Shown here in pieces: positions 1 through 1,109 of a stretch of DNA of 45,543 nt. Position numbers and translations under genes: made by a program. The stretch covers positions 1 through 45,543 of the forward strand of contig JAJPHE010000080.1 of assembly GCA_021325435.1 (NCBI GenBank), in the 5' to 3' direction. Position 1 is the stretch's first letter. Every line of letters starts with the position of its first letter. This DNA is from Actinomycetota bacterium. Lineage in GTDB: Bacteria > Actinomycetota > Acidimicrobiia > Acidimicrobiales > JAJPHE01. The notes under the pieces were generated by a model. It did not search any database. It worked only from the letters and a program-made list of their open reading frames with translations, and was not told the origin of the DNA.

Positions 1-1
1 C

Positions 2-70
2 CTCGACCGCATCGGCAGCGACCACCAGCTCTGCCTCAACTTCCTCCGCCACGCCGGCCTACAACTATGA
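2..70 (+). CDS. C-terminal fragment of an unidentified protein
   Basis: An open frame enters from the left edge and ends at TGA 68-70, giving the last 22 residues (starting LDRIGSDHQL). High-GC codon use fits a real gene end. The fragment is too short to assign to a family. It is followed by about 57 bases without a coding signal. Confidence 0.4.
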   Translation, partial: LDRIGSDHQLCLNFLRHAGLQL

Positions 71-127
71 ACCCCGGCAGCGCGGTATTACACGAAACTC
101 TTTAGGTTCCTGTAGCTAGCTGGTTGG

Positions 128-319
128 TCAGCCTCCGTGGCCGGACGGGTCAGGATGGGGGTCCTGTCTCACTCCCTTTACCGCCCACTCGGTCCGGGTA
201 ACCGGCTCGACCAGCGTGGCCCGGTACGGCACGGCGCCGAGCAGGTAGACCTGACCCAGGGAGGATCTGGCCCGCTCCTCGTCGGGGGTGGTGAAGATCT
301 CCACTTCCTCGCCGGTCAT
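128..319 (-). CDS. Small protein under a LexA-type SOS promoter, unknown function
   Basis: A 63-residue protein starting MTGEEVEIFTT. It is acidic at the N-terminus, has a hydrophobic core (QVYLLGAVPYRATLV) and a His/Pro/Gly-rich tail, with no membrane helix or signal peptide. Third codon positions are almost all G or C, better than the competing plus-strand frame over the same bases. The ATG overlaps the stop of a 12-codon leader ORF (ATGA), suggesting coupled translation. A near-perfect actinobacterial LexA box and a -10 (TATACT) lie 42-61 bases upstream, so DNA-damage induction is predicted. I do not recognise the family. It could be a small SOS checkpoint or stress protein, but that is a guess. 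Confidence 0.6.
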   Translation of the reverse strand: MTGEEVEIFTTPDEERARSSLGQVYLLGAVPYRATLVEPVTRTEWAVKGVRQDPHPDPSGHGG

Positions 320-354
320 GGGAGGAGGCGGGGCTTGGCGGCGGCGACGGTCAT
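316..354 (-). CDS. 12-codon leader ORF upstream of the SOS-controlled small protein
   Basis: ATG at 354 opens a short frame (MTVAAAKPRLLP) ending in TGA that overlaps the ATG of the 63-residue gene by the ATGA arrangement. It begins 6 bases after the TATACT hexamer (361-366), the spacing expected of a leaderless start, so the transcript may begin at this codon. Its likely role is to deliver ribosomes to the next start, since no Shine-Dalgarno precedes that start (the minus strand there reads CCTCC). This is an inference from layout; the peptide itself may do nothing. Confidence 0.4.
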   Translation of the reverse strand: MTVAAAKPRLLP

Positions 355-360
355 CACCCG

Positions 361-380
361 AGTATACGAACACACGTTCG
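361..380 (-). promoter_or_regulatory. LexA (SOS) box overlapping a -10 element
   Basis: Bases 367-380 read CGAACACACGTTCG, matching the Gram-positive/mycobacterial SOS box (CGAAC-N4-GTTCG, GAAC/GTTC arms intact). On the minus strand the box is directly followed by TATACT (361-366), a strong -10, so bound LexA would sit in the promoter spacer and block the minus-strand promoter. The plus-strand gene starts 49 bases away with its own -10, so control of that gene is less certain. Confidence 0.8.
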
Positions 381-416
381 AGTAGGTCGAGGAGTTTTTT
401 GCGAGGGGGGAGTCGG

Positions 417-431
417 TACGGTGGCCAGGTG
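417..431 (+). promoter_or_regulatory. Predicted leaderless promoter of the EcsC-like gene
   Basis: TACGGT (417-422), six bases, then GTG at 429. This fits the TANNNT-N6-8-RTG layout of leaderless actinobacterial genes and decides the start codon. No Shine-Dalgarno is seen at 429. Confidence 0.5.
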
Positions 432-1109
432 ACCGCACGCCGAGGGCGAGTAGGCGAGGTGCTGATGGCCGCCGTCAATCGCTCGATCACCGTGCGGTGG
501 AGCGCCGCGGTGGAGCGGGCGGCGGCGGCCGAGGGGGAGGACGTTGGCGCCAGGGTCAGGTCGGTGAGAGCGTCATTCGTCCGGGAGCTGGCCGCCGTGG
601 GCGGCGTGAGCGGGGGTGTTGCCGCCGTGCCGGCAGCGGGCACCGCCACGTCGCTGGCGGTGGCGGCCGCCGAGCTGGGTTGGATCACCGTGCGTCTGGC
701 CGACATGATCCTGACGATCGCCGCCGTCCACGGACTGACCGAGTCGTCGGTGGAGGAGCGCCGGGCATGGGTCCTGGCGGTATTGGTCGCCGGCGACAAT
801 GCCGCACTGGTCATGGCCGAGGCCGCCCGCGGCGCCGGCAAGGGCATCGGGCGCAGAGCCGGAAGGGCTGTGCCCGTGACGGCCCTGCGGGGACTGAACC
901 GAACGCTCGCTCAGTCCTTCGTCACCAAGTACGGAGCGAGGCGACAGGCGATCGCCGTCGGCACCGCACTGCCCTTCGGCGTCGGGGCTGTTGTCGGCGG
1001 CGCCGCCAACGCGGCAATGGCGAGGACCATCGGCAGGCAGGCAGACCGGTTGTTCCGGTCGCTCAACCACTCAGCGCTCACGCAGCTTGACTCGACTCTC
1101 GCCGAATGA
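429..1109 (+). CDS. EcsC-like family protein
   Basis: A 226-residue protein. Residues 56-105 form a Gly/Ala-rich hydrophobic stretch (VGGVSGGVAAVPAAGTATSL) and residues 172-204 a second one (LPFGVGAVVGGAANAAMARTIG) followed by an amphipathic tail. This is the layout of EcsC-domain proteins, whose biochemical role is poorly known; Bacillus EcsC is linked to ABC-transporter function. GTG 429 was chosen for the leaderless promoter; ATG 465 is an alternative. The last 32 bases overlap the convergent Clp-N gene. It is divergent from the SOS-controlled small gene and shares its 110-base control region, so co-regulation is possible but unproven. Confidence 0.6.
   Translation: MTARRGRVGEVLMAAVNRSITVRWSAAVERAAAAEGEDVGARVRSVRASFVRELAAVGGVSGGVAAVPAAGTATSLAVAAAELGWITVRLADMILTIAAVHGLTESSVEERRAWVLAVLVAGDNAALVMAEAARGAGKGIGRRAGRAVPVTALRGLNRTLAQSFVTKYGARRQAIAVGTALPFGVGAVVGGAANAAMARTIGRQADRLFRSLNHSALTQLDSTLAE

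Follow-up and report, generated by a model that had tools for sequence, protein, structure and literature searches.

We analysed a window of 45,543 nucleotides, which is the entire contig C86 of an Acidimicrobiales genome of 4.0 Mb assembled in 160 contigs. The features at its start are as follows.

1..104, plus strand: terminal part of a repeated element, probably an insertion sequence, of which near-identical copies lie at contig ends
128..319, minus strand: P0001, an orphan 63-codon ORF with coding-like codon usage save in the last third
316..354, minus strand: 12-codon leaderless ORF MTVAAAKPRLLP, read from the sequence, with its ATG 6 nt past the −10 element and with a coding-like codon score
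361..366, minus strand: −10 element TATACT, directly abutting the box
367..380, no strand assigned: LexA box CGAACACACGTTCG, an exact palindromic motif
385..390, minus strand: −35 element TCGACC from the promoter scan, with 9 of 12 consensus matches together with the −10 element
417..1109, plus strand: divergent, weakly EcsC-like gene (GTG at 429; Pfam EcsC, E = 0.012) with its own −10 element TACGGT at 417-422

A consensus promoter scan of positions 1-500 returned a single site, located on the minus strand and composed of TCGACC (390-385), an 18-nt spacer and TATACT (366-361), compared to a mean of 0.0 sites in shuffled sequences. The LexA box (367-380) lies wholly within this spacer and, therefore, bound LexA would occlude the minus-strand promoter. 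Based on this arrangement, we consider LexA control of the promoter highly probable. The first-pass annotation of this DNA had proposed an SOS box joined directly to a minus-strand TATACT, such that LexA would cover the promoter, and both proposals are borne out: the box is exact, TATACT abuts it and no other promoter was found in the scanned region.

The exact motif CGAAC-N4-GTTCG occurs at 14 sites in the 4.0 Mb genome, compared to one site for the reversed-pattern control. The remaining exact boxes include those of lexA, recA, dinB, ruvC, an exonuclease/GIY-YIG (UvrC-like) gene, an ImuA-like gene and two DUF222 genes. These identities were assigned by Pfam, except that the ImuA-like gene next to the LexA box has no Pfam match and is labelled by resemblance only. 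LexA and RecA are both encoded in the genome (L002 and L004), and both genes have a box of their own. A gene located about 2 kb downstream of the ImuA-like gene on the same contig is 71% identical to the DnaE2-like query; thus named, the ImuA-like gene and dnaE2 reside on contig C72 and dinB on contig C21. Because the sites fall at lexA, recA, dinB, ruvC and other such genes, the motif is, judging by its distribution, a marker of a genuine LexA regulon in this genome.

The two DUF222 genes behind exact LexA boxes (L006, C43:629; L009, C81:35996) are confirmed by Pfam, and in the relative G002 genes assigned to DUF222 by resemblance are found behind exact boxes at L090, L111 and L113. Contig C48 of G002, a genome of the same family, also carries an exact box (L107, positions 1252-1265) with a multiubiquitin-domain gene (Pfam Multi_ubiq) directly behind it, an arrangement which suggests that a bacterial ubiquitin-like system may be under SOS control.

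Downstream of TATACT, an ATG (354-352) follows after six nucleotides. Given this short distance, the transcript is predicted to be leaderless. We searched 397 Acidimicrobiales genomes for the corresponding layout, namely, the box followed by TAnnnT, 4-9 nt and RTG, together with a control pattern. The layout was matched 54 times in 48 of the 397 genomes, compared to three control matches, and in the genome studied here it occurs once, in the window. Reading of individual loci, with gene names given by resemblance, placed it before ImuA-like ORFs (L054, L056, L057 and L066), DnaE2-like ORFs (L051, L060, L068 and L069), a radical-SAM-like gene, a DUF222-like gene and several small ORFs. By these sequence criteria, leaderless SOS promoters arranged as box/−10/RTG recur in the order.

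The predicted mRNA would have ATGACCGTC... as its 5′ end, which opens the 12-codon ORF. Hence, the first start codon of the predicted transcript is that at 354, not that at 319, a point overlooked in the first-pass annotation. The TGA of the 12-codon ORF (318-316) overlaps the ATG (319-317) of the 63-codon ORF, as ATGA, the two ORFs being in different frames. Within the predicted transcript, the 63-codon frame has no start codon other than ATG 319, and inspection of the sequence ahead of it revealed no Shine-Dalgarno sequence. As for coding signal, G+C content of P0001 at codon positions 1/2/3 is 0.70/0.52/0.83, in agreement with the first-pass description of a 63-residue gene with high G/C third positions. 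A codon score modelled on the other genes of the window gave 0.255 per codon for this frame, compared to a gene mean of 0.26; among real 63-codon pieces the value falls at the 35th percentile, and only 0.6% of wrong-frame pieces attain it. By thirds, the scores are 0.52, 0.34 and −0.09, so that the last 21 codons are not coding-like. The 12-codon leader scores 0.28, albeit over a very short length. Taken together, translation of the 63-codon ORF is plausible but not straightforward, because the leaderless start opens another frame and ATG 319 lacks a Shine-Dalgarno sequence. Thus, of the LexA-controlled 63-residue protein suggested in the first-pass annotation, control of the promoter is retained as a sequence-based prediction, whereas its translation would probably follow that of a 12-codon ORF. 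The single-sequence fold of P0001 is poor (pTM 0.14), and its sequence has no evident hydrophobic membrane segment.

Searches for P0001 homologues in 99, and then in 397, genomes of the order found none. P0001 and a 75-aa fusion with the leader produced weak scattered matches alone in the 397 genomes. The best of these (E-value = 5e−4) is interrupted by a stop and lacks a box in its vicinity, several others also contain stops, and the exact box was present in the retrieved DNA for none of the 11 best weak matches examined. Two other genomes of the same family contained neither relatives of P0001 nor, when their exact LexA-box loci were read, any such locus with a P0001-like gene. A search of GTDB genomes with exact short-peptide seeds, able to find close relatives only, returned no homologue; viral, phage and plasmid collections yielded nothing credible (empty or chance results), and no match was found in Pfam, NCBIfam, PHROGs, PADLOC or PDB. 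The label "unknown family" given at first is, therefore, accurate in that no known family was matched, but with no homologue found P0001 does not constitute a family at all. Likewise, homologues with the box upstream, whose absence from related genomes the first-pass annotation had named as grounds for refutation, failed to appear: with no orthologue in the 397 genomes or GTDB, there is no conserved pairing of box and gene. It follows that the function of P0001 has no comparative support, although LexA control in the window's own genome is not thereby refuted. Two candidate relationships were also discarded. A 72% match of P0001 residues 46-63 on contig C82 lies in a different frame of what appears to be another gene, and DUF6504, a possible mutasome-associated small protein, was rejected since P0001 has no PF20114 match, nor does any protein genome-wide at E = 1.

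On balance, we lean towards the view that the locus has a real SOS promoter with a single site, from which a short coding transcript peculiar to this lineage is made. When bound at 367-380, LexA would occupy the gap between the −35 and −10 elements and block RNA polymerase. Upon DNA damage, RecA stimulates self-cleavage of LexA, and, going by the sequence and general LexA biology, this would free the promoter. Transcription would then be expected to start at or next to ATG 354, giving a leaderless mRNA, on which ribosomes would translate the 12-codon ORF first and, at the overlapping ATGA, start again to produce the 63-aa protein. Alternatively, both ORFs may represent one protein of ~75 aa divided by a frameshift or assembly error. 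The likeliest role of P0001 is that of a small accessory SOS effector which binds another protein and was recently gained in the lineage, but this is a tentative guess, which we would not rate as probable. The analysis yielded no evidence for or against the cell-division or DNA-repair role suggested in the first-pass annotation.

Several other explanations have to be weighed against a coding SOS transcript. The most serious, although unlikely, is that the locus is a decaying remnant: an SOS gene or operon, formerly longer, would have been disrupted by a frameshift separating the two ORFs and by insertion of the downstream repeat, leaving the promoter live but the product non-functional. Coding-like scores of two ORFs in different frames, as well as the lack of P0001 homologues, are compatible with such decay. 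So is the neighbourhood: the repeat starts 24 bp beyond the P0001 stop and terminates the contig. Bases 1-104 recur in six more near-identical copies, each located at the end of a contig and diverging after about position 104. A repeat resembling a mobile element therefore closes the contig; it is probably the transposase end of an insertion sequence and the cause of the break in the assembly. However, the repeat does not reach into the ORF, whose 63-codon frame is unbroken and has coding-like usage along two thirds of its length, and a broken known SOS gene should still match its family, yet none does. Severance of P0001 from a mutasome operon by the repeat was specifically rejected, given the location of the ImuA-like gene, dnaE2 and dinB on C72 and C21. 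It is improbable that the LexA-controlled transcript is a small RNA with incidental ORFs: the orphan status of P0001 and the lack of a Shine-Dalgarno sequence at 319 would fit, but codon bias in the ORF frame is coding-like, no terminator was detected in the scan of positions 1-500 and the locus has no Rfam match. That the box is a chance palindrome without LexA action here seems very improbable; going by the control, chance would account for about one of the 14 sites, and several sites (e.g. L007 and L012) look intragenic or located in repeats, but the box falls exactly within the −35/−10 spacer and the box-plus-promoter layout far exceeds its control in the order. Finally, control of the divergent EcsC-like gene (429-1109, its Pfam score below the cut-off) can be given hardly any credence: the box does lie upstream of it and LexA sites are palindromic, but the box is upstream of the expected −35 element, the gene has a leaderless-looking promoter of its own (TACGGT, 6 nt, GTG), lying divergently next to the SOS promoter, and no exact box was present in the DNA retrieved around its homologues from 15 relatives (0/15). 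Because of this separate −10 element and the boxless homologues, the LexA box most likely serves the minus strand.

Similar-looking small ORFs directly behind box/−10 promoters were observed at three loci, L046, L050 and L055. A first profile built from these three seeds, without using the box, had matches in 30 of the 397 genomes of the order, and in 24 of the 30 loci returned, seeds included, the start codon is preceded by an exact LexA box at a distance of 4-21 nt. An alignment of seven members was used to scan GTDB; this second search, which shared some genomes with the first, identified 42 loci, whose record titles are Acidimicrobiia (or taxa within it) or unspecified Actinomycetota/Actinobacteria/Actinomycetes. 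Of these, 38 have the exact box within 130 nt upstream, compared to none for the control motif with one mismatch allowed. The proteins of this group, RRS-AML (L115-L131, L134, L135, L138-L140, L142, L143 and L145-L186; e.g. L145:2001-2198), are about 48-82 aa long and share the consensus ELExxRRSxAMLPPGxxALxRExAxxLL, with a short motif RRS-[LIV]-AML and a longer form ELExxRRS[LIV]AMLPPG...LxREEA. None of the members tested scored above the curated cut-offs in Pfam, and none matched NCBIfam, PHROGs or PADLOC. Gene neighbours varied. RRS-AML is a conserved, unannotated family that, from its sequence and promoters, seems to represent a core-type SOS gene not previously described in the order, and it is a more useful lead than the orphan P0001.

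The genome studied here has no RRS-AML member at E = 0.001. Like RRS-AML genes, whose starts are often near-leaderless, P0001 is short and follows a LexA box directly, but the two share no sequence similarity: P0001 has no significant domain and scored −0.6 bits against the family profile, and was rejected as a member. We regard it as a long shot that P0001, or its 75-aa leader fusion, is a newly arisen SOS effector in the small leaderless LexA slot filled by RRS-AML elsewhere in Acidimicrobiales; if so, one small SOS protein would have taken the place of another, non-homologous one, within a class of such proteins not described before.

We found almost nothing in the literature on the SOS regulon of this class, to which the LexA switch described here adds one believable target. 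The closest known system is the actinobacterial LexA regulon, for example, that of Streptomyces venezuelae, where LexA ChIP-seq defined the operator tCGAAC-N4-GNNCGa and included hypothetical proteins among the targets, one of which heads an operon with the DNA polymerase IV gene and has its SOS box at −14 (PMC9380542). The operator type is alike in the two organisms, whereas P0001 has no homologue and its LexA control is predicted from sequence. The P0001 gene is a new predicted LexA target with an orphan product. A small LexA-controlled product, as predicted for P0001, is likewise characteristic of the SOS division inhibitors SulA, YneA, ChiZ and DivS, but P0001 lacks LysM or any other Pfam/NCBIfam domain. 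Nor does it resemble any of the three components of the ImuA-ImuB-DnaE2 mutasome, whose ImuA-like and dnaE2 genes lie on a different contig of this genome; in relatives, however, ImuA-like and DnaE2-like ORFs follow the same leaderless LexA promoter layout as that predicted for the P0001 locus.
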